From Myxococcales bacterium (GTDB taxonomy: Bacteria; Myxococcota; B64-G9): DNA of 47,217 nucleotides. The translations under genes and the position numbers were made by a program. The stretch is taken from positions 1 through 47,217 of the forward strand of contig JAAZNF010000069.1 of the NCBI GenBank assembly GCA_012798435.1. The letters are read 5' to 3'. This document shows, piece after piece, positions 1 to 13,086 of the stretch. Position 1 is the stretch's first letter, and every line of letters starts with the position of its first letter. A model generated the notes under the pieces. That model was not told the DNA's origin. It was given only the letters and a program-made list of their open reading frames with translations, and made no database searches.

Positions 1-401
1 AGCATCGCCGCGAAGAGCAGGTTCGACTGGAGCAGCGAAAGACCCACCAGCCGTGGTCGGGCCTGCTGGATCTTCTCGGCGGCGAGGTCCGCGAACCCCT
101 CCAGCCGGGCCAGGGTGAGCCGGTCCGGCCGGCCTTTGAGCAGGCGCTCGAGGTAGGCCGGGTCGTCGCCCCACACCCCTTTCGCGTACAGGGATTCGAG
201 CGAGGTCTGGTCATACGTCCAGTGATAGAGGTCCCGGTCGAGCTGGTAGTAGAGCCGCGAGAGGTTGACGGAGCCGGTGCCCAGGCCCTCTCTCCTCAGC
301 GCCGCCACCAGGTAGGCCACGCCCAGGCTGTCGAAGCGGTGCGGGTGACCGATGCATGGCGGCAAGACGAGCAATAGGTCCTGACTATCCCCGTGAATCA
401 T
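1..401 (-). CDS. Cobalamin-binding-type radical SAM protein, N-terminal part (cut by window edge)
   Basis: The leftward frame opens at an ATG at 401 and is still open at base 1, so about 133 N-terminal residues are seen. It begins MIHGDSQDLLLVLPPCIGHP and continues with FDSLGVAYLVAALRREG and RPRLVGLSLLQSN. This is the Rossmann-like N-terminus typical of B12-binding radical SAM proteins: a first strand ending in PP, then a helix that 'walks' a list of structures. The radical SAM CxxxCxxC motif would lie outside the window, so its presence is inferred. It lies 105 bp after the second nitrogenase-like gene, on the same strand, and probably belongs to the same cluster. No strong Shine-Dalgarno sequence precedes the ATG. 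Confidence 0.75.
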   Translation of the reverse strand, partial: MIHGDSQDLLLVLPPCIGHPHRFDSLGVAYLVAALRREGLGTGSVNLSRLYYQLDRDLYHWTYDQTSLESLYAKGVWGDDPAYLERLLKGRPDRLTLARLEGFADLAAEKIQQARPRLVGLSLLQSNLLFAAM

Positions 402-450
402 CAGGCTAGGCTTATCGGCAGGTACTTCACCCGTCAATTCTTTTTACTCG

Positions 451-506: not shown

Positions 507-1829
507 CTACCCGGCGGCGACCTCCAGCAGGCGTTTGGCCAGCGCCCGCAATCCGGAGAATCCAAGTACGGGCGCGGGTTCGCTCGGGTGCCAGCGGTTG
601 GAAGGAAAGCCGAGCTCCATCCACGCGGCGCCCTCGCGGATGCGCGGTGGCAACCACAGGTCCGGCCCCACGATGAAATCGACTCCGCCACGCCGGCCGA
701 ACACCATCTCGAAGGCCCGCTCCAGCTCCGTGTAACCGGGGTTTTCAAGGATGACCGGGGGCGAATCGACGCCACTGGTGCGAAGCTCTGCCTGCAGCGC
801 CTTCCTCCCGCCCAGGGTCTCGTCGAGCAACACCGCCAGCGGGACTCGTACGCCCAGTTCGGGGAGCAGGCAGCACAGCCCCGCCGCCAGCGGCGTGTCG
901 GCCAACACCAGTGCGCGCTTGCCTGCAAGCTCCCGGCGAGCCCGACGCAGAACCGGCTGGAGCCGCGCGCGTTCTTCTCGCACGAAGCGCCGCGCCCGAT
1001 CTTCGCCGGCTCCGGCGGCCTGCGCCGCGGTCAGCACGAACGATTCGGTGTGCGCCGTCCCCACCGGGAGCGCCGTCGGCAGGACCGGCCGTCTGCCCCA
1101 ATGCCCGTGCGCGACCGCTCGCGCCGGCGCTGGTGACCCCGCGGCCAGTGGCTCATCCAGCAGATAGGGAAGCCGCAAGATGGCCGCCGAACCGGCGAGT
1201 TCCAGAAGCTTTGCGAGAGGCGCGCCCGAGAAGAACACCGGGCCCGGCTCCGCCCCGGCGCCCTTCAGCAAGCGGCGCAACTCGTCGAGGTCCGCCTGCT
1301 GATCCGATTCGTAGCGGTGGAACCAGTGGCCCACGATGCCGACGCTGCGTCCTCTCGCCGGCGAGCGCTTCCAGTCCACCAGATCGAGCACCGCCCGCTG
1401 CGCCGCGCCGTAGCCCGCGTACATGTCTCTGTCCCAGCCGGCGCTCGGGAGCAACACCACCGGGCATCCGGCGCGCCGTCGGATACGCGCGAGGGCGGGC
1501 CGAAGGTCCGCGCTGAGGAGCTCCGCCGCCGCCGAGGTGGCGACGAAGATGATCCCCACCTGGCCTCTCCGGCTCACCGTCTCCAGGGTGATGTTCTCGA
1601 GCCGGTCGAGCGGCCCGCCGATGGCCTCGCGCTCGCCGATGTCGGCCCACACCATCTTGCTGCCCGCCTCGCGAAATCTGTCGTGCTGGGCGATCTGGCG
1701 CTGGGCCTTGGGTTTGCAGCCGACGCCGGTGAACAGGATGTCTAATGCGTCGGGGATGGCGTGCGCGGCCAAAAACGAGCCGAACAGCGCGCGTTGGTTC
1801 ATCAACGGTATTTCGAACTTTGAACTCAT
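507..1829 (-). CDS. Nitrogenase component 1-like protein, single conserved Cys (NifK/BchB-like partner)
   Basis: 440 aa. The start ATG overlaps the stop of the preceding gene as ATGA (1826-1829), so translation is coupled. The fold is that of nitrogenase/oxidoreductase component 1. After an N-terminal helix comes LFTGVGCKPKAQRQ, where C38 sits in the place of the HGxxGC P-cluster cysteine. Then follow repeated Rossmann-like blocks (GQVGIIFVATS, GRSVGIVGHWFH, GKRALVLADTPLAAGLCCLL) and a C-terminal segment with GFPSNRW and APVLGFSGL, as in NifD/K and BchN/B. The other two cluster cysteines of NifK are not seen; the strand that normally ends in TC reads VATSAAAE. The reaction is unknown. It most likely forms a heterodimer with its neighbour, in the manner of dark protochlorophyllide reductase NB. 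Family assignment is by pattern and not by a search. Confidence 0.7.
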   Translation of the reverse strand: MSSKFEIPLMNQRALFGSFLAAHAIPDALDILFTGVGCKPKAQRQIAQHDRFREAGSKMVWADIGEREAIGGPLDRLENITLETVSRRGQVGIIFVATSAAAELLSADLRPALARIRRRAGCPVVLLPSAGWDRDMYAGYGAAQRAVLDLVDWKRSPARGRSVGIVGHWFHRYESDQQADLDELRRLLKGAGAEPGPVFFSGAPLAKLLELAGSAAILRLPYLLDEPLAAGSPAPARAVAHGHWGRRPVLPTALPVGTAHTESFVLTAAQAAGAGEDRARRFVREERARLQPVLRRARRELAGKRALVLADTPLAAGLCCLLPELGVRVPLAVLLDETLGGRKALQAELRTSGVDSPPVILENPGYTELERAFEMVFGRRGGVDFIVGPDLWLPPRIREGAAWMELGFPSNRWHPSEPAPVLGFSGLRALAKRLLEVAAG

Positions 1830-3139
1830 GCTTTCTTTCTGGTGAAGGCAACGGCCGAGTTCGAGATCGCGCGCTCGATCTCGCGGCAGCTCGGCGCGAC
1901 GCCGCCCAGGCCGAGATGCAGCGCCGCCCGGGTGATCATGGGCGTGTGCGCCGCGCCCGCCTCGTCTCGAAGCGACTCGTCGCAGAACACGGCGTCGAAC
2001 CTGCCCTTTTTCAGGGCCACCGCGAGCGACAACCGGTCCGGCAGGCAGGCAAAGGGCCTCGAGATCCCGTATCGCTGAAGGAGACGCCGGATCTGCTCTT
2101 GCCGCTCGCTCTCCACGGCACCCTGGAAGAACAGGGTGATCTCGAAGCCGAGTTCCAGAAACAACGGCAGCGCCACCAACCCCCCGTAGGCCGAGGTGAA
2201 CGCCTCGAAATCCTTGCGCGAGCCGACATGGTACGCGAGCCGCCGGGCGTTCCCGCGCCAAAACCGCCGCACCGCGCGATGCGCCTCTTCCCGCAGGCGG
2301 TTGGCGATCTTTGTCTGACGCGACCGGCCGCGGGGCCACGCGAGCCAGCGCGGTCGGTCGCGCGATGGAGTCTCTTTCGCTCGCGGCGTCAGAGCGAGGC
2401 TCGATCCCAGCGCCCGGTAGAACTCCAGGCTGCGCGAGAGGCCCAGGGGCAGCGGCGCCTCCATCAGCGCAAGGCCCCGCTCCGCCCAGGCGGTGCCGGT
2501 GCGTGCGAAAAGCTCCCGGTCCGGGACGACCAGCAGCGGCCCTGCACGCAAGCATTCCCAGCGCGCGAAGTCCGAGGTGGGATCGAGCCGGCAAAGCTCG
2601 ACCCCCGCGCTCGCCAGCAGCCTCTGGCACTCGCCCCCGTCGTCCGGATAGCCCAGCAGCGCCACGCGGCGCGCCCGGCTCTTTGGCTTCCGGTTCGGCA
2701 GGTTCTCCCGCACGAGAAGCTCGCAAAAGCGGTCGATGAGCTCCGCCTGCCCCACCTTGCCGAAGGCCGCGCCCGAGAGCACGACGAGTTTTCCGCAGCC
2801 GGCGTGTCGGCGCGCGGCGGCATCGAGATCCTCGCCCATCATGCTGGCCACGCACCCCCCGAGGACGAACACCGTGCCTTGCTTTCCGCAGCGGCGTCGG
2901 GCCTCGGATACCGCGCGCCAAAGCTTCTCCCCCCCGCGCCCGGCCACGGCTTCGCGCTCGGTGAGGTTGGTGCACAAAAAGCGCCGGGGATCCACCACCC
3001 GCGAATCCCGGAACACCAGATTGGCGCAGTCCGGCTCGCTGTGCAGCACCACCGCAAAATCCCCGGCCGCGAACGACAGGAGCTGCGTCATCCCCTCGAT
3101 GAGGCAGCCCGGCTGAGAAAGATCGGTTCGCTCGCTCAT
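1826..3139 (-). CDS. Nitrogenase component 1-like protein with three cluster-type cysteines (NifD/BchN-like)
   Basis: 437 aa. ATG at 3139 follows GAGGCGGGG, 7 bp after the upstream gene. The N-terminus gives C12 (SQPGCLIEGM), C38 (VVLHSEPDCANL) and C96 (FVLGGCVASMMGEDL). The first two are 26 residues apart, as are the P-cluster ligands Cys62 and Cys88 of NifD. FLCTNLTEREAVAGRGGEKL matches the 'tdL.E.d.vfGGe.kL' block before the third cysteine, and MMGEDLDAAAR matches the GDDl block after it. A second half (ARRLAYHVGSRKDFEAF, LPLFLELGFEITLFFQG) keeps the repeated Rossmann architecture. A four-Cys [4Fe-4S] site made of three ligands here and C38 of the partner is inferred. No FeMo-cofactor Cys/His pair is recognised, so nitrogen fixation is not implied. 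Substrate unknown. Confidence 0.75.
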   Translation of the reverse strand: MSERTDLSQPGCLIEGMTQLLSFAAGDFAVVLHSEPDCANLVFRDSRVVDPRRFLCTNLTEREAVAGRGGEKLWRAVSEARRRCGKQGTVFVLGGCVASMMGEDLDAAARRHAGCGKLVVLSGAAFGKVGQAELIDRFCELLVRENLPNRKPKSRARRVALLGYPDDGGECQRLLASAGVELCRLDPTSDFARWECLRAGPLLVVPDRELFARTGTAWAERGLALMEAPLPLGLSRSLEFYRALGSSLALTPRAKETPSRDRPRWLAWPRGRSRQTKIANRLREEAHRAVRRFWRGNARRLAYHVGSRKDFEAFTSAYGGLVALPLFLELGFEITLFFQGAVESERQEQIRRLLQRYGISRPFACLPDRLSLAVALKKGRFDAVFCDESLRDEAGAAHTPMITRAALHLGLGGVAPSCREIERAISNSAVAFTRKKA

Positions 3140-3146
3140 CCCCGCC

Positions 3147-5441
3147 TCACAGCGGCCTGGGCCGCAACCCGGCCTGGAGCTGGTGGCGCCATAGACCCGG
3201 ACACAGGACGCGCGCGGCGCAGGTTTCGCACGCGGGGAGTGCCCGGGCAAGGCTCTCCAGCATCCGGCCAAAGTTCCGCTGGCTCCCGTGCGCAAACAAC
3301 ATCTCCAGATACCGCTTGCCTCCCCCCATCGGCACCCGGCGCGCAAGGCTTCCCAACAGGCATGGTGCCAGGTTGTGGAGCTGGATACGGGATGCGTCCA
3401 CCCCCAAGAGCAGGCGAGAGACCGCCTGTCGCACCGCGGCCGGCCGTGGAAAAACAAATCCCTCGCGCGCCGCCTCTCCGATCGGCAAGGGATACTGCAG
3501 ATTCACCGAGCGGCAGCCGAGCCGCAGCAAAGACCCGACCGTGGCGGGCAGCACGGAGAGGTTCTCCGGCAGCAGGACCACGTTACCCAGCAGCTCGACC
3601 CCGCTATTCGACAGCGCGCGGATCCCCCGCACGGCCTGCGCGAAGCTCCCTTCGACCCGGGTGAGCCGGTCGTGGCCTCCCGCCTCCGGCGCGAGCAACG
3701 TGACCACCGCGGCGTCGAGGCCCGACCGCCGCAGGCGCGCGGCGTAGGCCGGATAGGCGGCCCGGCGAGCGTTCGTCACCAGAGTCACACGCTTGAAACC
3801 AACCTGGCGAGCATATTCAATGAGCTGGGGGAGGTGCGGGTAGAGCGTGGGCTCGCCGCCGTCGATGTCGAGCTGGCGTATGCCCTCTCGCGCCGCGCGC
3901 TCGAGCTCGCGTCGCAGCCGATAGAGCGGCGCATCCCGGCGCGACAGGGTGCTGGTGCAGCAGAAGACGCAGCGCACGTTGCAGCGGTAGCTCGGGGCGA
4001 GCAGCAGCTTTGGCTCGCGCGATTCGTGGATGCGGCGCTCGAAATTCTCCCGGAACCGCAGCAGGTCGTCGGGCGAAAATTCGCGGGTGCGGACGAGGCT
4101 GCGTCGGGTGAACAGATCCCCGATCTCCATGTTCGCGGTGTCGCGCAGAAGATGCTTGCCCGCTTTGGCCGCCCGGTACAGCGGCGTGCCCGGCACGGGC
4201 GTGGCGAACTGGAGGCGGGGCTCGGCGCGGTAGCGCTCGGCCAGCTCGGCGAGCGCGAGCAGCGTCCGGTTGATCTGGGCGCGCCTCTCGCCGGGAAAGC
4301 CGATGATGCCGTGGACGCGGACACGCAGGCCCGCTTCGGCGAACCAGGCGGCGGCGTGCTGGACGTGCGAGAGCGAGAGCGTCTTTCGCACCAGACGCGA
4401 GCGCACCTCGTCGTCACCGGACTCGAGCGAGAGCGAGGGCGCCTGCATTCCTGCCGCGGCCAGGTCGCGGACGTCTTGCCGCCGCAAGCGATCGGCGCGA
4501 AAGCCGTTCGGCGCCTCCCAGGGGATGCGGCGGCGGCGCAGGCCGCGCGTGATGGCAGAAAAACGGCGCGGGTCGGCGTTCATGCAGTCGTCGAAAAAGA
4601 CGAGCCGCTCAGGCCGGTACTTTCGCCAGGAGTCCTCTGCTCTTTGCAACGTCGCCCGGGCCGAGGCGGCCCGGTAGCCGGGGAAGCCCTTGGCGCAGAA
4701 GGAGCAGGCGAAGGGGCAGCCGCGGCTGGAGAGCAGCGGCAAGAAGCGCCCGCCGCCCGGGAACTCGTGGATCAGATCGAGCTCGCCGGCGCGCATCTGG
4801 AAGGCGAAGAAACGCTCCATGTCGACGAGATGGAACGCCGGTGCGAGCGCGTCCAGATCCGTACAGAGCGGGCCGGGGAAGACCCCGCGCATGATGGCTC
4901 TTCCCTCGCGGTGGACGCAGCGGGGAAGATCCGAAAACGCCCGCCGTCCCGCAAGCGCCGCGAGCAGCGCAGGCAACGCCGACTCCCCTTCCCCGGTGCA
5001 CACCGCGAAGAGCTCCTTTGCGGCGCCGAGCGCCTTTAGCGGGTCGTACGGAAGATAGTCCAGCCCGCCGGCGTAGCAATCGGCGAGAACGAGCGGCAGG
5101 CGCGGGAAGCGGCGACGAAGCGCCCGAAAAAGGGCGGGCAGCTCGGTCCGCTCGATCCGGCCCGGATGGGCGAACATGGAGGCGGTGACGATGGCCACGT
5201 CGGGGACACCCTCGGCCTCGTCCACCAGGCGGCCGGCGGAGACGCCGAGCCGGACGCCGGCGTTCCCGACCCGGATTGGCGCTTCCCCCGGTCCCGCCAG
5301 GAAGGCGTCGAGCACGCGCACGTGCGCTCCGAGCCGTTCCAGGTGCCCGGCGGCGTAGAGCAAGCCCAGCGCGGCGAACGAGGGGTAGTTCACGAAGGCG
5401 CGCGGGAGGATGAGCGGCGGCTGGATCAGCAGGACCTCCAT
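3147..5441 (-). CDS. B12-binding protein with two radical SAM domains
   Basis: 764 aa. The start at 5441 (MEVLLIQPPLILPRAF) puts the cobalamin-binding fold right at the N-terminus; the frame is open further upstream, but that part has no recognisable domain. Residues 1-200 look like a B12-binding domain without an obvious DxHxxG. The first radical SAM module carries C242-x3-C246-x2-C249 (RGCPFACSFC) and the second C487-x3-C491-x2-C494 (YRCNVRCVFC), followed by DIDGGEPTLYPHL, the 'GGEP' SAM-binding strand. The tail C738-x2-C741-x5-C747-x-G-x-W could bind an auxiliary FeS cluster. Anaerobic radical chemistry such as methylation, rearrangement or cyclisation is expected from the family; the substrate is unknown. 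The next gene starts 7 bp downstream. Confidence 0.85.
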   Translation of the reverse strand: MEVLLIQPPLILPRAFVNYPSFAALGLLYAAGHLERLGAHVRVLDAFLAGPGEAPIRVGNAGVRLGVSAGRLVDEAEGVPDVAIVTASMFAHPGRIERTELPALFRALRRRFPRLPLVLADCYAGGLDYLPYDPLKALGAAKELFAVCTGEGESALPALLAALAGRRAFSDLPRCVHREGRAIMRGVFPGPLCTDLDALAPAFHLVDMERFFAFQMRAGELDLIHEFPGGGRFLPLLSSRGCPFACSFCAKGFPGYRAASARATLQRAEDSWRKYRPERLVFFDDCMNADPRRFSAITRGLRRRRIPWEAPNGFRADRLRRQDVRDLAAAGMQAPSLSLESGDDEVRSRLVRKTLSLSHVQHAAAWFAEAGLRVRVHGIIGFPGERRAQINRTLLALAELAERYRAEPRLQFATPVPGTPLYRAAKAGKHLLRDTANMEIGDLFTRRSLVRTREFSPDDLLRFRENFERRIHESREPKLLLAPSYRCNVRCVFCCTSTLSRRDAPLYRLRRELERAAREGIRQLDIDGGEPTLYPHLPQLIEYARQVGFKRVTLVTNARRAAYPAYAARLRRSGLDAAVVTLLAPEAGGHDRLTRVEGSFAQAVRGIRALSNSGVELLGNVVLLPENLSVLPATVGSLLRLGCRSVNLQYPLPIGEAAREGFVFPRPAAVRQAVSRLLLGVDASRIQLHNLAPCLLGSLARRVPMGGGKRYLEMLFAHGSQRNFGRMLESLARALPACETCAARVLCPGLWRHQLQAGLRPRPL

Positions 5442-5553: not shown

Positions 5554-6933
5554 TCAGCCGGCATGGCGCGCGACCTCCCGCAAGCGCTCGACGGCCTCGG
5601 CGATGGCACGGGACGAAAACGCCCGGGTCCGGTAGTGGGGAATCCCGGTACCGAAGTCGGCCCGGCGATAATCCCGGAACCGGCGCAGCGCCGGCCGCAC
5701 CCCGAATTCATTCGGGACCTCGAACATCGGCGAGCCGGGGTCGAGATCCATGGGACACACGGTGACACCCACCCCGGGCACTTCGCGGAGGCGCCGGATG
5801 AGCGTCTCCGTCTCGGCGATGTCGCATGCGCGCTCGAACGGCAACCCCGCCGAAAAGAAGACGTGCGCGCCGAGCCCACGGCTGCGTACCCGTCGCACCC
5901 GCTCGAGGAGGGCGTCGTTGGAAAAAGCGAACGACCGGTTGCGGCGCCGGATCCGTTCACTGCCGCACTCCGCCGAGATCACCAGGACCGAATCGGGGGT
6001 GAACGTCTTCTGAACCGCCTCCACGAAGGATTCGCTGGGGAGCGAAAAACAGTCGAACACCAGCCGATAACCGAGCCGCTTCTTTCGAACGCGCGCGAAC
6101 AGCTCGCGGTAGTACTCCCGGCGGGGCGACGGATCGAACGACACCCGCCAGGTCCGGGCCCCGAAGGCGTACGCCCTGGAAAGATCTCGTAACACCTTGG
6201 AGAGACTATAGAAATAAAATCCACGGCGGCCATCGAGCATCTCGCGGGTCCAGAAGGACGCGCCGCAAAAAGAACAACGGCCGGGGCACCCTCTTCCCGG
6301 GTTGTAGAAGAACGCCCGTGTGTAGCGGTGTGCCTCGCCCTGGGCGCTCGAGGTGTCGAAATCCGCATAGATGCACCGATGGAGGTACTCCCGGTGCGCC
6401 GGAAACAGCTCGAAACAGGCGTGGTCGAGGCCGTCCGCGAACCTTTCATCGACCGAGAATGCCCGCGGGTTCTCGACGACTCGGCCGCGGCGGCGCCAGG
6501 ACAGGTTGGGGATCTTGGACCAGTCGCGTTCGCCGCGTTCGATGGCGGCAAGAAGCAGCGCTGCCGGAACCTCGCCATCGCCCCGAACTACCCCATCGAT
6601 CTCCAAGACGTCCCTGAGAATCTCCCGGAAAAAGTACGATGCCGTGAATCCACCAATAATAACGGGTAGATGCGGGTATTTTTTCTTAATCTGCTTTACA
6701 AATTTTTTTACCGGGAGGGCCTGGCGAGTCCAGTGAAGATCCAGTAGCACCGCCTCGAAGTCGCCCGCGCACGACAGAATGCTTTCGCTCTCCTCGAGCC
6801 CCGCATGCCGTATCTCCACAGAATGCTTCGAACGTTGCAAGAACCCCGCTATGGAGAACAGGCCCATCGGCATGGCCATGATCTCGTTTCTGTCTTCGGT
6901 CCGGCTCGGAAGATGCGCGATGAGGCACCGCAT
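5554..6933 (-). CDS. B12-binding radical SAM protein
   Basis: 459 aa, first gene of the leftward cluster. Residues 1-190 are the cobalamin-binding-type domain (MRCLIAHLPSRTEDRNEIMA, then FEAVLLDLHWTR, LPVIIGGFTASYF and VVRGDGEVPAALLL). The radical SAM core follows, with C216-x3-C220-x2-C223 (GRGCPGRCSFCGAS), VLVISAECGSERIRRRNRSF and VCPMDLDPGSPMFE, as in magnesium-protoporphyrin cyclase (BchE)-like and related enzymes. The substrate cannot be told. The ATG at 6933 has only a weak ribosome site. Codons around 6650-6720 are unusually AT-rich (a lysine-rich KKFVKQIKKKYPH stretch) compared with the rest of the window, which may mark transfer. The gene diverges from the 7034 operon. Confidence 0.85.
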   Translation of the reverse strand: MRCLIAHLPSRTEDRNEIMAMPMGLFSIAGFLQRSKHSVEIRHAGLEESESILSCAGDFEAVLLDLHWTRQALPVKKFVKQIKKKYPHLPVIIGGFTASYFFREILRDVLEIDGVVRGDGEVPAALLLAAIERGERDWSKIPNLSWRRRGRVVENPRAFSVDERFADGLDHACFELFPAHREYLHRCIYADFDTSSAQGEAHRYTRAFFYNPGRGCPGRCSFCGASFWTREMLDGRRGFYFYSLSKVLRDLSRAYAFGARTWRVSFDPSPRREYYRELFARVRKKRLGYRLVFDCFSLPSESFVEAVQKTFTPDSVLVISAECGSERIRRRNRSFAFSNDALLERVRRVRSRGLGAHVFFSAGLPFERACDIAETETLIRRLREVPGVGVTVCPMDLDPGSPMFEVPNEFGVRPALRRFRDYRRADFGTGIPHYRTRAFSSRAIAEAVERLREVARHAG

Positions 6934-7033: not shown

Positions 7034-8857
7034 TTGACGGCCCAACCGATTTCACTTGCGGGTGTAAGCAGTGGTGTCTGCCTCGTGGCGGTCTGGGGGC
7101 AAATTCTGTGCACGGCATTCATCGCCGCGCGCTTTTTTGCGCGTCGAGCCGATCTGCGCTGGGTCGCGCTGCGGCTCTTTGGGCTCTCTTTCTTGCTGGC
7201 GTTCGCCGTACGCACGGTCGTGCCGTTCGGTCCGATCATCAATAGCGGTCGCGATCTCGCCTACCTCGATGAGATCCTGCTCGCGCCCTCCGCCGCCCAC
7301 ACCCATCTTCCGTCCGCCCTGTATTATGGGCTCCGCCTGTTCTCCGATCCTGTCCAGGCTCTCGAGTGGGCGCAGATCGTCATCGGGTCGGCCTGCGCGG
7401 GCCTGGTGGCGCTGCTCACCTTCTGTCTCTACCGCCGGGAGGCCGCCGCGATGATCGCCGGCTTTCTGGGCGCGGTTTTCGTCGCCGCGGCGCGAGTGGA
7501 CGCCAGCCCGGACGCCGTGACGTCGCTACGCTTCGTGACCCTGCTCACGGCGATCGCCGTCCTCCTGTACCACCGGGTGCCCTCCTGGACGAGGCTCGCC
7601 TGCGTTGGCCTGGGAGCGATCGCCATGAGCTACGGGCGCCTGGAGAGCCCGTTGTTCGCGGCCCTCCTCCTCATCTGGCTCGCCGCCGACGAACCTCTCC
7701 GCGATGGCGTCGCGCGCCCCGGGACTCGATGGGGAGGGTGGGCGACGGGAGGGTCCCTGCTCGTCGTCGCGGCCACCGGCATGCTCCTCAGCCGTTGGCT
7801 GCTCGTCCCCGTCCTGGCGCTGGCCATCGCATGGCTCGTCCGGCGCCGCGGAGGCTGGCCCGCTTCGGGGCGGGTGCTGCTGCTCGTCGCCACGGTTGCC
7901 CTCGCTCTGCTTCCCCGCTTCTTTGAAGTAGCGAGCCTGGAGCGGGAGACCTACTCCCGGTTCCCCAAGGCGCTCATGTTCCTGGTCGGCCGGACCAACC
8001 TGCTCTTCCACCCGGCGCTGTGCACGCCGCTTGTGGCGATCCTGGTGGCGCTGGGTCTCGGCGCCTTCCGCCGAACGGCGCCGGCTGCATCGGGATACCT
8101 TTTTTCAGTCGCGCTTCCGGCCTATGCCTTCGGCTTGCTCTTCATGGGCAACGCCTCGGCCATCATGCGGCTCCAGGGGAACGGGCTTTTTCTTCTGTTC
8201 CCCCTCGCGGGAATCGGCGCTGGCCGGCTCGTCGAATGGTTGAGCGGACACTGGGGAACTTACCGGCGTTGGGCGCTGACTCTGGCAGCCGTGACACTCA
8301 TCAGCGCCTTGCTCCCGGGCGGAAGAACGCTGACGGAGGCCACCAGCCTCGACCAGGAATATGCCTTCTTGCGCCGACTGAACGAATGGGTGCCTCCGGG
8401 CAGCGATGTCTTTCTCCCCGTGTCAAGGGAGGATTGCAGTCTCGTCTCGATCCCACAGGCGCTGGCGCGGCGGGCCGGAATCACCCCACGGACCATAGAC
8501 TTCCCCGGCCTGTCGCTGCCCGTGGGAGCGCTGGTCTTTTTGGGAGCCGGGTGCCAAAGATTCCGAAACGGCGAACCGCTGCCCGGGGTCGGGCTCCGCG
8601 CCGGGGAGGTGGCGTTCCGGGGCGAGGTGGACCCTCGTCCCATCCGCTTCATCCTGCTGGCGCTGGATCGAGAGGGGTACGTCCAGGCGACCTTCGACGC
8701 CCTGGCCGTGGACGAGCGGCCGCAGTGCCGGGCCTTACGCCTGCGACACGGTCTTACGCCCTATCGGGTCGAACGCCTCCGGCGCTCCTCTCTGGAGGGC
8801 CACCTGATGCCGCGCGAGGTCGAGTTCGGGCTGTATCGCGTGACGGCGGAGCGCTGA
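7034..8857 (+). CDS. Polytopic membrane protein, possible GT-C type glycosyltransferase
   Basis: 607 aa from a TTG start at 7034, chosen because GAGGA lies 7 bases upstream and the next in-frame starts would cut the first membrane helix. Residues 1-435 hold many hydrophobic helices (about 10-11), among them VCLVAVWGQILCTAFIAARF and GLSFLLAFAVRTVV. An acidic loop after the second helix (NSGRDLAYLDEI) is where GT-C enzymes keep catalytic acids. Residues 436-607 are soluble and probably periplasmic. The layout of membrane half then soluble tail, and the GT2 gene 1 bp downstream, suggest transfer of sugars from a lipid carrier. No family signature was recognised, so a hypothetical membrane protein is an equally fair call. 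Confidence 0.6.
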   Translation: MTAQPISLAGVSSGVCLVAVWGQILCTAFIAARFFARRADLRWVALRLFGLSFLLAFAVRTVVPFGPIINSGRDLAYLDEILLAPSAAHTHLPSALYYGLRLFSDPVQALEWAQIVIGSACAGLVALLTFCLYRREAAAMIAGFLGAVFVAAARVDASPDAVTSLRFVTLLTAIAVLLYHRVPSWTRLACVGLGAIAMSYGRLESPLFAALLLIWLAADEPLRDGVARPGTRWGGWATGGSLLVVAATGMLLSRWLLVPVLALAIAWLVRRRGGWPASGRVLLLVATVALALLPRFFEVASLERETYSRFPKALMFLVGRTNLLFHPALCTPLVAILVALGLGAFRRTAPAASGYLFSVALPAYAFGLLFMGNASAIMRLQGNGLFLLFPLAGIGAGRLVEWLSGHWGTYRRWALTLAAVTLISALLPGGRTLTEATSLDQEYAFLRRLNEWVPPGSDVFLPVSREDCSLVSIPQALARRAGITPRTIDFPGLSLPVGALVFLGAGCQRFRNGEPLPGVGLRAGEVAFRGEVDPRPIRFILLALDREGYVQATFDALAVDERPQCRALRLRHGLTPYRVERLRRSSLEGHLMPREVEFGLYRVTAER

Positions 8858-8858
8858 C

Positions 8859-9614
8859 ATGACCCGGGGATGCGAACACGCGGTCCTGCCGCTCTCGGTG
8901 GTGGTTCCGGCATACGACGAGGCCGCCGGGCTCGAGTCCGCGGTCGAGGCGTTGGTTGCCTGGCGGGGGGACCGCAGCGCGGAGATCATCCTGGTGGACG
9001 ACGGCAGCACGGACGAGACACCGCGAATCATGGAGCGCTTGCGCCAGCGAATGCCCCTCGTCCGGACCATCGGTTGGAGGCGCAACCGGGGACGGGGCGC
9101 CGCGCTTCGAGAGGGAATACTCGCCGCCCGGGGACGCGTCGTGCTCACCACCGAGGCCGACCAGAGTTGGAGCACCGCCACGCTGGAGTCGTTGTGCAGC
9201 GCCGTCGAGGACGAGCGGGCCGACCTGGCCCTCGCCTCCCCGCACCTTCCGCCCGGCGGCTTCGAGAACGTCCCCCTGTCGCGGCGCCTGCTCAGCCGCG
9301 CGGCGAACACCCTGGCCGGGCGGGTGCTGGGGCATTCCATCACCATGGCCACCGGCATGACCCGGGCTTACCGGCGCGGCGTCCTTCGCGAAATCGCCTC
9401 CCCGCGCGACGACAAGGCCTTTCACCTGGACACGCTCTGCCGCGCGATCCGCGCCGGGCTGCGGGTGGTCGAAATTCCGGCGGTCGTCCGCTGGCCCGAT
9501 GGGCCCAACGGTCGGCGCGGTCCGCGGCGACCCCTGCGAAGCCTGGAGCTTGCCCACCAAGCGGTGGCCCACCTGGTCGTGCTGGGAGAGCACCTGTGGC
9601 GAACCATGGCCTAG
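8859..9614 (+). CDS. Family 2 glycosyltransferase (dolichyl-phosphate mannose synthase-like)
   Basis: 251 aa, one base after the previous stop. LSVVVPAYDEAAGLESAVEA opens the GT-A nucleotide-sugar fold, EIILVDDGSTDET is the classic GT2 motif, and RNRGRGAALREGILAARG and VLTTEADQSW give the second acidic region in place of a strict DxD. There is no membrane segment, so it is a soluble or peripheral enzyme using NDP-sugar, probably to charge a polyprenyl phosphate that the upstream membrane protein could use. The length fits short DPM-synthase-like members. Its last 19 bases overlap the deacetylase gene. Confidence 0.88.
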   Translation: MTRGCEHAVLPLSVVVPAYDEAAGLESAVEALVAWRGDRSAEIILVDDGSTDETPRIMERLRQRMPLVRTIGWRRNRGRGAALREGILAARGRVVLTTEADQSWSTATLESLCSAVEDERADLALASPHLPPGGFENVPLSRRLLSRAANTLAGRVLGHSITMATGMTRAYRRGVLREIASPRDDKAFHLDTLCRAIRAGLRVVEIPAVVRWPDGPNGRRGPRRPLRSLELAHQAVAHLVVLGEHLWRTMA

Positions 9615-10597
9615 CACGATTCACCTCTCTCACGGTGGATCTGGATCCGCTCCGAAGCTACCTCGAAAACCGCCGTCTGACACCGGCGCCTGAGACGGAC
9701 CTCGAGGCGGTGATGCGCGACGGGCTGCCACGGATTCTGGATCTACTCTCCCGCCTGGGGATCCCGGCCACGTTCTTTGTTGTCGGCCAGGACGCCAGAG
9801 ACGGAGAGAACGCCCGCTGGCTGAGGGCCGCCGTGGCCCAGGGCCACGAAGTCGCGTGTCACAGCGATCGCCACCTGCCCGACTTCGATCGCCTCCCCCG
9901 CCGCGAGCTCGCGCTCGACATCGGCCGTTCTCGGGAAGCATTGGAGAGCGCCACCGGCCGCCCGGTCACCGGCTTTCGCGCCCCCGCCTGGAACATCCCG
10001 CGAGAGTTGTTCGAGATCCTGGTGGCCCAGGGATTCGAGTACGATTCCTCCCTCGTCTCGCGCCCGGCCGGCCCGTGGCGCGTCGCCGCGTTGCGCCTGC
10101 TCAAGACGTTCTCACCATCCACCGCTCCCCACCGCATCATGCAGGGCCAGCCAGCGGCGACCGTCCCGCATCGTCCCTATCCGATGGACCCCGCACGGCC
10201 GTGGCTGCCATGCCCGGGATCCTCGCTGTGGGAGATCCCGCACGGTTGCTCGGCGGGACCGCTCCCCGTTCCGCTGAACGGTACGGTCCTGGGGTGGCTT
10301 CCCGACCCGATCACCGCCGGGATGTGCCGCCTCGGCGCGCGCCGGCCGGAGCCGCTGATCTTCGTGTGTCACGGGATCGACCTGGTGGATTTTCACCGCC
10401 ACGTCCGGGATCCCCGCTTGCGCGGAAAGCCTGGCCTCACCGCGCCCATCGCCGCCAAGGAGCGGCGGCTCTCGAACCTGCTACGCGCGCTGGGCGCGAA
10501 ACGCACCTGGGTGACGCTTCGGGATCTGCGACGGGCCTGCGCGGACGCCGTCACCGCGCACGGCCAAGGGTTTGCACCGGATCGCACCAACGGCTAG
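9596..10597 (+). CDS. Polysaccharide deacetylase (NodB homology domain)
   Basis: 333 aa from GTG at 9596, placed by GGGAGAG five bases upstream; it overlaps the GT2 gene by 19 bp. Family 4 carbohydrate esterase motifs are in order: SLTVDLDP (two Asp), ATFFVVGQDA, the metal-binding HSDRH, GFRAPAWNIPRE, and EPLIFVCHGIDLVDFH near the end. The enzyme should remove N- or O-acetyl groups from a glycan with a divalent metal. The motif spacing resembles the DUF3473-type deacetylases of exopolysaccharide clusters. There is no signal peptide, so it acts in the cytoplasm or at the inner leaflet. The operon context suggests that an acetylated glycolipid intermediate is processed here. Confidence 0.88.
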   Translation: MANHGLARFTSLTVDLDPLRSYLENRRLTPAPETDLEAVMRDGLPRILDLLSRLGIPATFFVVGQDARDGENARWLRAAVAQGHEVACHSDRHLPDFDRLPRRELALDIGRSREALESATGRPVTGFRAPAWNIPRELFEILVAQGFEYDSSLVSRPAGPWRVAALRLLKTFSPSTAPHRIMQGQPAATVPHRPYPMDPARPWLPCPGSSLWEIPHGCSAGPLPVPLNGTVLGWLPDPITAGMCRLGARRPEPLIFVCHGIDLVDFHRHVRDPRLRGKPGLTAPIAAKERRLSNLLRALGAKRTWVTLRDLRRACADAVTAHGQGFAPDRTNG

Positions 10598-10606
10598 AGT
10601 CGGGTC

Positions 10607-12544
10607 ATGAACCCGACCGGCGACAGGCGCCACCTCGAGATCAACATCGGCAAGCTGTGCAACAACGCCTGCCGCTTCTGTTCGAACGGCGCGGTCCCGC
10701 CCGAGGAACGTCCCTGGGTGCCGGTCGAGACGGTTCTTTCGGAGATGGAGCGTGGCGCGCGCCAGGGGTTTGGCTCGGTGGGATTCCTTGGGGGCGAGAT
10801 CACGGTGTACCCCGATGCGCTCGAGCTTGTGCGCCGGGCCCGCGCGCTGGGCTTTTCCCGCATCGCCATCTGCACCAACGGCCGGCGGCTGGCGAACCCG
10901 CGACTGGTCGACGAATACCTTCGAGCCGGCGTGACCCGGGTGGCGCTCTCCATCCACAGCCACCTCGCCGCGTTCGAGGACGAGCTGTGCGGCCGCCCGG
11001 GCGCCTTCGCCCAGAAGATCCGCGCCATCCGCAACCTGGCCCGCCGAGCGAGGCGCCTGTCTGACGGCTTCTCGCTCAACTGCTGCATCCACGGCCACAA
11101 CGTCGACCACCTGAGCGAAATGGTGCGCTTCTTCCACCGCCTCGGCGTGCGCGACATCCGGCTCAACTCGCTGCGCCCCGAGAACCAGGCGGCGGCCGAC
11201 CGCACCCTGGTGCCCCCCTTCTCCCGTGTGGTCGAACGGGCGCTTTCGCTCATCGAGGAGAACGAGTCCCGCCTCCGGATCAGCCTCACCTTCGGCGACA
11301 TCCCGCTGTGCCTGTGGCCGGCGGACTTTCTGGCCGACAGCGCCCGCGCCGGAAAATACCTCGGCGAGCTTCGCGACTACGACGCCTGGGTCACGGTGTA
11401 CCGCAAGAGCGGCAGCGGCGGCGAACCGGACCGCTTCCGCTGGAAGGACCGGCGACTCGAGGCGCTCAAGCGCTACGTTCCGGCGTGCCGGAAATGCAAC
11501 GCGCGCGGTGTGTGCGAGGGCCCGTGGATCCGCTACTGCCAGCTCTACGGCGATGCCGAGTTTCACCCCGTCCAGCGCCCAGGGTCCGAGGCATCTCGGT
11601 CCCAGGTGGGCCAGCCCGCGACGACCCGCCGGCGGCACCGCCTGCACGTCATGGTTTCGCGCTTCTGCAACAACCGCTGCCGCTTTTGCCTGGAGGACCG
11701 CGAAGATCGCGCCCGGCACGACTTCTCGGATCAGGACCGCGCGCTCGATCTGTACCCCCATCGCGACGAGGTGATCTTCACCTGCGGCGAGCCGACGCTG
11801 CAGCCGAAGCTGGCACAATGGATCCGCAAGGCGCGCGAGCTCGGCTACCGCTCCATCGAGCTGGTCACCAACGGCCGGCGCCTGTGCTACCCCGAGCTGG
11901 CCCGCGCCCTGGTCGAGGCTGGCCTCACCGCGGTGACGGTGTCGCTGCACAGCCACCTGCCGCGCATCCATGACCGGATGACCTCGAGCCGGGGGAGCCA
12001 GCGGCAGAGCGCCGCCGCCGTCCACAACCTCCTCGCGCTGCGCCAGGAGCTCGGCCGGCCGCGGGTCACCGTGAGCACCGTGCTCACCCGCGACAACCTC
12101 CAGAGCATCGCCCGCACCGTGCGCTGGGTGGCGACGCTCCGACCGGACTGCATGGTTATCAACTTCGTCGAACCGGAGAACGAGGCGAAGCGCAACTTCG
12201 ACGAGGTGGTGCCGCGCATGCGCGAGGCGGCGGTCGCGCTGGCCGCCGTCACGCCTCCGCCGGACATGGAGCTCAAGATCGAGGGCCTGCCCCTGTGCCT
12301 CTTGCCGCGAGCGGCCCCGCCAGCCGGAGAGCGCGAGGTCATCTACGTCTTCCGAGACGGCCGCATCCGCCGGCTCTCCCCCACCCGGCGCCAGAAGAAA
12401 GGCCCGCCCTGCCGGGCTTGCGCCGAGCGCCGCCGCTGCGACGGGGTGTGGATCGAATACGCCCGGCGCTACGGCTGGGAGGAGTTTTCCCCTTTGGGGA
12501 GCCCAGCGGCCGAGTTTTGCATCTTTCCTGACAATCCGATATAG
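10607..12544 (+). CDS. Tandem radical SAM protein with two SPASM-like tails
   Basis: 645 aa, two homologous halves. Half 1 has C18-x3-C22-x2-C25 (LCNNACRFC), FLGGEITVYP as the SAM-binding strand, AICTNGRRL, VALSIHSHL, and a tail C294-x2-C297-x5-C303-EGPW. Half 2 repeats this with C354-x3-C358-x2-C361 (FCNNRCRFC), IFTCGEPTLQP, ELVTNGRRL, VTVSLHSHL and C602-x2-C605-x5-C611-DGVW. Each tail is followed by Y-x3-YG-x2-EF-x-P. The gene is therefore an internal duplication with both active sites apparently intact. The tails resemble SPASM/twitch auxiliary-cluster ligands, and the same motif ends the 764-aa protein of the facing operon. Such proteins modify peptides or small molecules; the substrate is unknown. 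It starts 9 bp after the deacetylase. Confidence 0.85.
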   Translation: MNPTGDRRHLEINIGKLCNNACRFCSNGAVPPEERPWVPVETVLSEMERGARQGFGSVGFLGGEITVYPDALELVRRARALGFSRIAICTNGRRLANPRLVDEYLRAGVTRVALSIHSHLAAFEDELCGRPGAFAQKIRAIRNLARRARRLSDGFSLNCCIHGHNVDHLSEMVRFFHRLGVRDIRLNSLRPENQAAADRTLVPPFSRVVERALSLIEENESRLRISLTFGDIPLCLWPADFLADSARAGKYLGELRDYDAWVTVYRKSGSGGEPDRFRWKDRRLEALKRYVPACRKCNARGVCEGPWIRYCQLYGDAEFHPVQRPGSEASRSQVGQPATTRRRHRLHVMVSRFCNNRCRFCLEDREDRARHDFSDQDRALDLYPHRDEVIFTCGEPTLQPKLAQWIRKARELGYRSIELVTNGRRLCYPELARALVEAGLTAVTVSLHSHLPRIHDRMTSSRGSQRQSAAAVHNLLALRQELGRPRVTVSTVLTRDNLQSIARTVRWVATLRPDCMVINFVEPENEAKRNFDEVVPRMREAAVALAAVTPPPDMELKIEGLPLCLLPRAAPPAGEREVIYVFRDGRIRRLSPTRRQKKGPPCRACAERRRCDGVWIEYARRYGWEEFSPLGSPAAEFCIFPDNPI

Positions 12545-12576: not shown

Positions 12577-13086
12577 GTGGAGCTCTTCGAAGCCCTCTTC
12601 GACCGGCGCAGCATCCGTCGCTTCGCGCCGGGCGAGGTGTCCGACGAGGCCGTGGAGAAGATGCTGCGCGCGGCCATGTACGCGCCCTCGGCCGGCAACC
12701 AGCGGCCGTGGCACTTCGTGGTCCTGCGCGAGCGGCGGCTGCTGAACGCGGTGCCCGGCTTCCACCCCCATGCCAGGATGCTCTCCGAGGCCGCCCTGGC
12801 CGTCCTGGTGTGCGCCGATCTCGCCCTCGAGACCCACCGCGGCTACTGGATGGTGGATTGCGCCGCCGCCACTCAGAACCTCTTGCTGGCCGCGCACGGC
12901 CTGTCGCTCGGCGCGGTGTGGCTGGGGATCTTTCCGCGACCGGAGCGGATGAAAGGCATGCGGGAGCTGCTGCGGCTTCCGGAAAATATCCAGCCGTTTG
13001 CCTTGGTGGCCGTCGGAAGAGCGGCCGAGCACCCGCCGCGGCCCGAGCGCTTCCTGACCGAGCGCATCCACCGGGACGGTTGGTGA
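12577..13086 (+). CDS. Nitroreductase family protein (FMN-dependent)
   Basis: 169 aa from GTG at 12577, preceded by GGGAGGATGAC. RRSIRRFAPGEVSDE and MYAPSAGNQRPWHFVVL are the FMN-phosphate-binding signatures of the NADH oxidase/nitroreductase family; SLGAVWLGIFPR is the conserved GLGS/GTCW-like block; and the end (LVAVGRAAEHPPRP, RIHRDGW) is typical of the short subfamily. It should be a homodimeric flavoenzyme reducing or oxidising an unknown small molecule. Some relatives are dehydrogenases in cofactor or peptide-modification pathways. It lies 32 bp after the tandem radical SAM gene and may be the last step of that operon. Confidence 0.9.
   Translation: MELFEALFDRRSIRRFAPGEVSDEAVEKMLRAAMYAPSAGNQRPWHFVVLRERRLLNAVPGFHPHARMLSEAALAVLVCADLALETHRGYWMVDCAAATQNLLLAAHGLSLGAVWLGIFPRPERMKGMRELLRLPENIQPFALVAVGRAAEHPPRPERFLTERIHRDGW

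Follow-up and report, generated by a model that had tools for sequence, protein, structure and literature searches.

The stretch of DNA analysed here (in the following, the window) comprises 47,217 nucleotides of a contig of a Myxococcales bacterium (JAAZNF010000069.1, assembly GCA_012798435.1) and carries, close to its start, two adjacent nitrogenase-like genes situated among radical SAM genes. The following features were considered:

3..437, reverse strand, N-terminal part of a B12-binding radical SAM protein (assigned by homology), the gene being cut by the contig end
507..1829, reverse strand, K-like (beta) subunit of 440 aa, PF00148
1826..3139, reverse strand, D-like (alpha) subunit of 437 aa, PF00148
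3147..5441, reverse strand, radical SAM protein with two radical SAM domains, the second HxsC4/HxsC-like (profile match)
5554..6933, reverse strand, B12-binding radical SAM protein, TIGR04190-like (under the cut-off)
7034..10597, forward strand, genes for a membrane protein, a GT2 glycosyltransferase, and a polysaccharide deacetylase, with homologs within the Hxs locus of genome G005 (L038, L070)
10607..12544, forward strand, double radical SAM protein with HxsC4 as strongest match (279.6 bits over several stretches, cut-off 500)

A nitroreductase-family flavoprotein is encoded at 12577-13086, after the double HxsC4-like gene. An earlier, sequence-only reading had described the companions of the pair as B12-binding radical SAM proteins, and radical SAM genes are indeed located at 6933-5554, 5441-3147, and 437-<3, of which the first and the last encode B12-binding proteins. 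The full-length homolog of the truncated gene, likewise a B12-binding radical SAM gene, is found in the cluster of genome G165 (L037:17876-19345).

The D and K genes overlap by 4 bases (ATGA), in line with the two adjacent, translationally coupled proteins of 437 and 440 aa that had been read from the sequence. Both proteins match the PF00148 (Oxidored_nitro) profile far above its cut-off (1.3e-18 for D and 8.7e-38 for K). AlphaFold2 models were obtained with a pLDDT of 81.7 for D and 83.6 for K, and all top structure matches listed are nitrogenase-family chains, namely DPOR, NifEN, NifK, and Mar in case of D (best E 4e-15) and VnfK, AnfK, NifK, NifN, and Mar in case of K (best E 3e-20). By sequence, the closest solved structures are distant, with NifE as the best match of D. 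The pair is real, and the fold of nitrogenase component 1 is confirmed both by HMM and by structure comparison, the two approaches that the sequence-only reading had proposed for this assignment.

None of the NCBIfam equivalogs, NifE/N included, is reached by the pair. The equivalog and subfamily cut-offs of NifDK/VnfDK/AnfDK are missed with 12-22 bits versus 427-854, and the equivalog cut-offs of BchN/B/Y/Z with 21-33 bits versus 324-529 and of CfbD with 23.5 bits versus 268.4; furthermore, a K subunit is present here, whereas CfbCD consists of a D without a K. Based on cut-offs, ligands, and tree (see below), an identity as NifDK, DPOR/COR, or CfbD was rejected. In a K tree of 40 rows, from which IsrK and CfbD sequences are absent, a single clade comprises the 12 K proteins of the window type (98/99), with the K2 proteins of a second pair (see below) as sister clade (100/97). 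Jointly, the two clades are separated from NifK, NifN, BchB, BchZ, MarK, and others with a support of 100/98. The grouping of window-type K with NifN is rejected by the AU test (p 5.3e-8). Membership in the Mar family was rejected as well, since MarK groups with other references outside the clade of the window K. The phylogeny that had been suggested thus places K in a clade of its own, and the assignment of the pair to the nitrogenase superfamily, outside all characterised clades accessible to testing, is supported. The tree of the H proteins contains long branches (BchX, L121_Hb), so that its deep order is unreliable.

In the superfamily, an H protein delivers electrons in an ATP-dependent manner to an Fe-S cluster at the subunit interface. 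Cys12, Cys38, and Cys96 of D are invariant in 11 of 11 D homologs and Cys38 of K in all 12 K homologs of the alignments, and their counterparts in the alignment are the ligands of the interface cluster in NifD/NifE/BchN and in NifK/NifN, respectively. Three invariant cysteines in D and one in K predict an interface [4Fe-4S] cluster of the NifEN type. The Cys/H-x4-C spacing which had been put forward does not represent the relevant motif; the conserved ligand set consists of these cysteines. Cys56 of D was dropped as a candidate ligand, since it is the invariant Cys12 that occupies the column of NifD Cys62. At the columns of the FeMo-co ligand pair (NifD Cys275 and His442), no Cys or His is conserved in the window D or in D2, and the ligand pair is seen in neither D/K nor D2-K2. 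His414 of K is invariant in the 12 homologs and lies five residues past a GFP motif, the same spacing as that of NifD His442 after GLP; being located in the other subunit and lacking an accompanying Cys, it was given no weight.

Four PF00148 proteins are encoded in the genome of the window, namely the pair described here and a second pair, D2-K2, on contig C102. The only strong NifH-like gene (H) of this genome is located with D2-K2 on the same contig, and the window pair has none of its own. A single NifH-like gene each was counted in G000, G005, G165, G202, and G195, the first four of which carry both pairs. H, D2, K2, D, and K, arranged in this sequence, form a contiguous series in G165 and in locus L095, and D/K and D2-K2 are neighbouring in G005. 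From these gene counts we infer that one H probably serves both D/K and D2-K2.

Contig C102 also harbours the context in which the pair can be placed. An HxsA4 precursor gene (L013:17903-18283; NF038313 with 93.5 bits, cut-off 55) is located directly after K2, an HxsB gene (477.5 bits, cut-off 370) lies 1.1 kb from H, and HxsB is preceded by an HxsD-like gene with a near-threshold score (48.6 bits, cut-off 50). The window pair itself is located on contig C121, and thus the HxsA4/HxsB/HxsD peptide system is invisible from the window. Of the His-Xaa-Ser RiPP system (HxsA, HxsB TIGR03978, HxsC, HxsD TIGR03976; Haft and Basu), the genome of the window shares HxsA4, HxsB, and HxsC4-like genes, beside the near-threshold HxsD candidate. 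In other genomes, these components occur together. The G165 cluster contains H, D2, K2, D, and K along with HxsD, HxsB, and HxsA4, and L113 shows the collinear order HxsD-HxsB-HxsA4-H-D2-K2. A stretch of approximately 45 kb in G005 comprises HxsD, HxsB, HxsA4, HxsC-like genes, both pairs, and H, with a distance between pair and Hxs genes of up to 26 kb, and the same stretch carries homologs of the radical SAM, GT2, deacetylase, and membrane genes of the window. Due to this combination of homologs of its genes with Hxs genes and both pairs, the window most likely belongs to the same kind of locus. Homologs of the radical SAM gene at 3147..5441 adjoin HxsB in G202 (L100) and G052 (L077) and are also found in the Hxs loci of G005 and G008. 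At locus L077 (G052:C9), HxsA4/B/D genes are accompanied by homologs of radical SAM genes of the window, in a genome that lacks a PF00148 match.

All of the 10 precursors tested pass the HxsA4 cut-off, and nearly all of them end in Trp or Tyr. In the phylum of the window, the precursors (e.g., L013:17903-18283) often contain a Tat-like TRRDxL motif with a hydrophobic stretch, which is replaced by KKD or similar residues in the Elusimicrobiota. Judged from these motifs, export of the precursor after maturation is possible.

The nitrogenase-like family travels with the HxsA4/B/D peptide-maturation system in two phyla. Among 195 sampled genomes of the window's phylum, of which 13 contain the nitrogenase-like family and 182 do not, HxsB occurs in 12/13 carriers versus 29/182 others (p 2e-8) and HxsA4 in 11/13 versus 10/182 (p 9e-11); in the Elusimicrobiota, used as an independent phylum, HxsB occurs in 16/17 carriers versus 15/182 others (p 3e-14), where all of these p values ignore shared ancestry, five families in two phyla are involved, and physical linkage constitutes separate evidence. 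Such linkage was observed in 10 of 16 Elusimicrobiota carriers, with nitrogenase-like genes and HxsB on one contig 2-18 kb apart, and distances across genomes often amount to 1-26 kb. Except for one carrier per phylum, G001 (70% complete) and G275, all carriers possess HxsB. By contrast, HxsB was found in 0/9 of those Elusimicrobiota genomes whose nitrogenase scores are ordinary; ordinary and divergent PF00148 proteins were separated at a bit score of about 165, which was set after viewing the list. When public genomes were scanned with only window-type K as query (the 15-sequence K2 alignment was too diverse), the matches comprised 11 loci in 10 genomes, three of which (G165, G005, and G003) were already contained in the earlier sets, and HxsB is present in 10/10. 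Three of the window-type loci from the scan (L088, L089, and L092) belong to Elusimicrobia MAGs. A search of a plasmid collection gave no match.

In the reverse direction, HxsA4 and HxsB occur without nitrogenase-like genes in 13 to 15 Elusimicrobiota genomes and also in G052. Due to this one-way dependence, the nitrogenase-like genes have the appearance of an added tailoring module; the peptide core needs no nitrogenase-like genes, and the link could thus be to an accessory product.

Since the ligands indicate a [4Fe-4S] cluster and no FeMo-co, an organic molecule is the likely occupant of the pocket, and because of the neighbouring genes, HxsA4 in its modified form, or a molecule which undergoes maturation on this peptide, is the first choice. 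We give an even chance to the reading that the pair represents the D and K subunits of an ATP-driven reductase of the nitrogenase superfamily, which belongs to an extended HxsA4-type RiPP locus and acts on a presumed substrate, either the HxsA4 peptide itself or a product assembled on it. The NifH-like H from the D2-K2 locus on contig C102 would dock on both pairs, and low-potential electrons would flow from it via an interfacial [4Fe-4S] cluster of D/K to an organic molecule bound in the alpha/beta pocket, similar to DPOR, COR, and CfbCD. The substrate would be, with less certainty, the HxsA4 peptide with its His-Xaa-Ser repeats and aromatic terminal residue after modification by radical SAM enzymes, or a small molecule for which this peptide serves as maturation platform, and D/K and D2/K2 may, again less certainly, carry out two successive reductions. 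Somewhat short of even is our confidence in the more specific claim that H and two sister D/K pairs reduce radical-SAM-modified HxsA4, or else a cofactor constructed on this peptide, which would be the first use of the superfamily on a peptide. A counterpoint to a peptide as substrate is given by the window's own genome, where the pair and HxsA4/B/D are located on separate contigs, and the presence of genes for B12-binding radical SAM proteins would be compatible with a tetrapyrrole or lipid pathway as well.

It is conceivable, but rather unlikely, that D/K serves as a NifEN-like scaffold or maturase for a catalytic D2-K2, to which it would deliver a cluster or cofactor that it has assembled or kept, with the B12/radical SAM proteins carrying out NifB-like chemistry. 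Two sister pairs with one H resemble the layout of NifHDK plus NifEN, and D/K shares with NifEN the fold, the all-Cys 3+1 ligand set, and the position of a second pair beside one H; in addition, among solved structures the sequence of D matches NifE best. However, the FeMo-co ligand pair is missing from both pairs, so that a cofactor for transfer is not apparent, several Hxs genomes carry D2-K2 without the second pair, and the window K, for which a clade with NifN is rejected (AU p 5e-8), belongs to a separate clade, with the NifE/N cut-off unreached and a NifDK client absent. With the same limited probability, a tetrapyrrole is made or reduced, with D/K as a ring reductase of the DPOR/COR/CfbD kind and BchE-like B12 radical SAM proteins acting on the ring. 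DPOR and COR (BchLNB, BchXYZ) as well as CfbCD, superfamily members without FeMo-co that reduce tetrapyrroles, have in common with the pair the fold, the lack of the FeMo-co pair, an expected [4Fe-4S] cluster, and an ATP-driven H donor; the fold of D matches DPOR, and the 5554-6933 protein weakly matches BchE (50.7 bits versus a cut-off of 481). On the other hand, the equivalog cut-offs of BchN/B/Y/Z and CfbD are not reached, and the DPOR interface ligands are 3 Cys and 1 Asp, compared to 3 Cys and 1 Cys in the window pair. No tetrapyrrole biosynthesis gene, nor any pigment or F430 gene, was recognised in the clusters read, which is a weak argument as labels were given by similarity to cluster genes and by eye; HxsA4 and HxsB/D recur instead.

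Clusters are long and mixed and Hxs systems often occur without nitrogenase-like genes, as would be expected if both sets of genes belonged to separate pathways and merely shared islands or lifestyles of anaerobes rich in radical SAM genes. We regard this as quite improbable, since the nitrogenase-like family depends almost absolutely on the Hxs genes in both phyla (12/13, 16/17, 10/10), HxsB occurs in none of the genomes with ordinary nitrogenase scores, and genes are collinear and interleaved, e.g., in L113. A divergent N2-reducing nitrogenase, for which superfamily membership is the only argument, has a practically negligible probability, considering that the FeMo-co ligands are absent, the NifD/K cut-offs are missed by hundreds of bits, and these four are the genome's only PF00148 proteins.

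For the Group IV systems MarHDK/IsrHDK, the linkage of a nitrogenase-like set to a radical SAM gene has been described (PMC11423573), a feature shared with the window pair. Mar differs in its use of nitrogenase metalloclusters (PMC12552129), the ligand pair of which is missing in the window pair.

Nitrogenase paralogs in groundwater Elusimicrobia were reportedly described by Meheust et al. 2020 (ISME J 14:2907), who are said to have found a suite of radical SAM genes beside the paralogs in loci of Elusimicrobia, Gracilibacteria, and Myxococcales and to have proposed tetrapyrrole reduction. These Elusimicrobia paralogs come from the same phylum as L088, L089, and L092. The view of the pair as a nitrogenase-like reductase with radical SAM companions and a layout of its own is partly supported, namely with regard to the position outside the characterised clades tested and to the neighbours, but such loci are not unheard of. 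New are the peptide link, i.e., the HxsA4/B/D system, and the H-less second pair. We know of no nitrogenase-like member of the His-Xaa-Ser system, and the literature searched contained no paper linking nitrogenase-like genes with it. To our knowledge, all nitrogenase-like enzymes of known function act on a small gas, a tetrapyrrole, or a small sulfur compound. The data suggest chemistry of the nitrogenase type as a means of modifying a ribosomally synthesised peptide or a product assembled on it. If true, a peptide-linked branch would widen the chemistry of the superfamily and provide a concrete reductive step for the long-orphan His-Xaa-Ser system, and the observation of a nitrogenase paralog plus radical SAM genes would become a pathway that is open to testing and whose precursor gene is named.

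Several variants of the nitrogenase-like genes were observed. D2 proteins possess a long N-terminal extension without a Pfam match, which comprises approximately 280 aa in the genome of the window (L013:14391-15230). An orphan K paralog of G005 (L040:9140-10396, G005:C28) has neither D nor Hxs neighbours and has lost the cluster Cys (VGADG replaces VGC). In L081 (G102:C76) of the window's phylum, a fused CfbC-like H and D gene is followed by K, and no equivalog cut-off is reached. Elusimicrobiota genes fusing a NifH-like protein to D2 are found at L088:1518-3938, L108:3722, L110:5217, and L121:4019. An extreme expansion is given by L121-L123 (G317:C16, ~44-104 kb), where at least 9 PF00148 matches occur in approximately 57 kb, including several H-D2-K2 sets and fused H-D2 genes.
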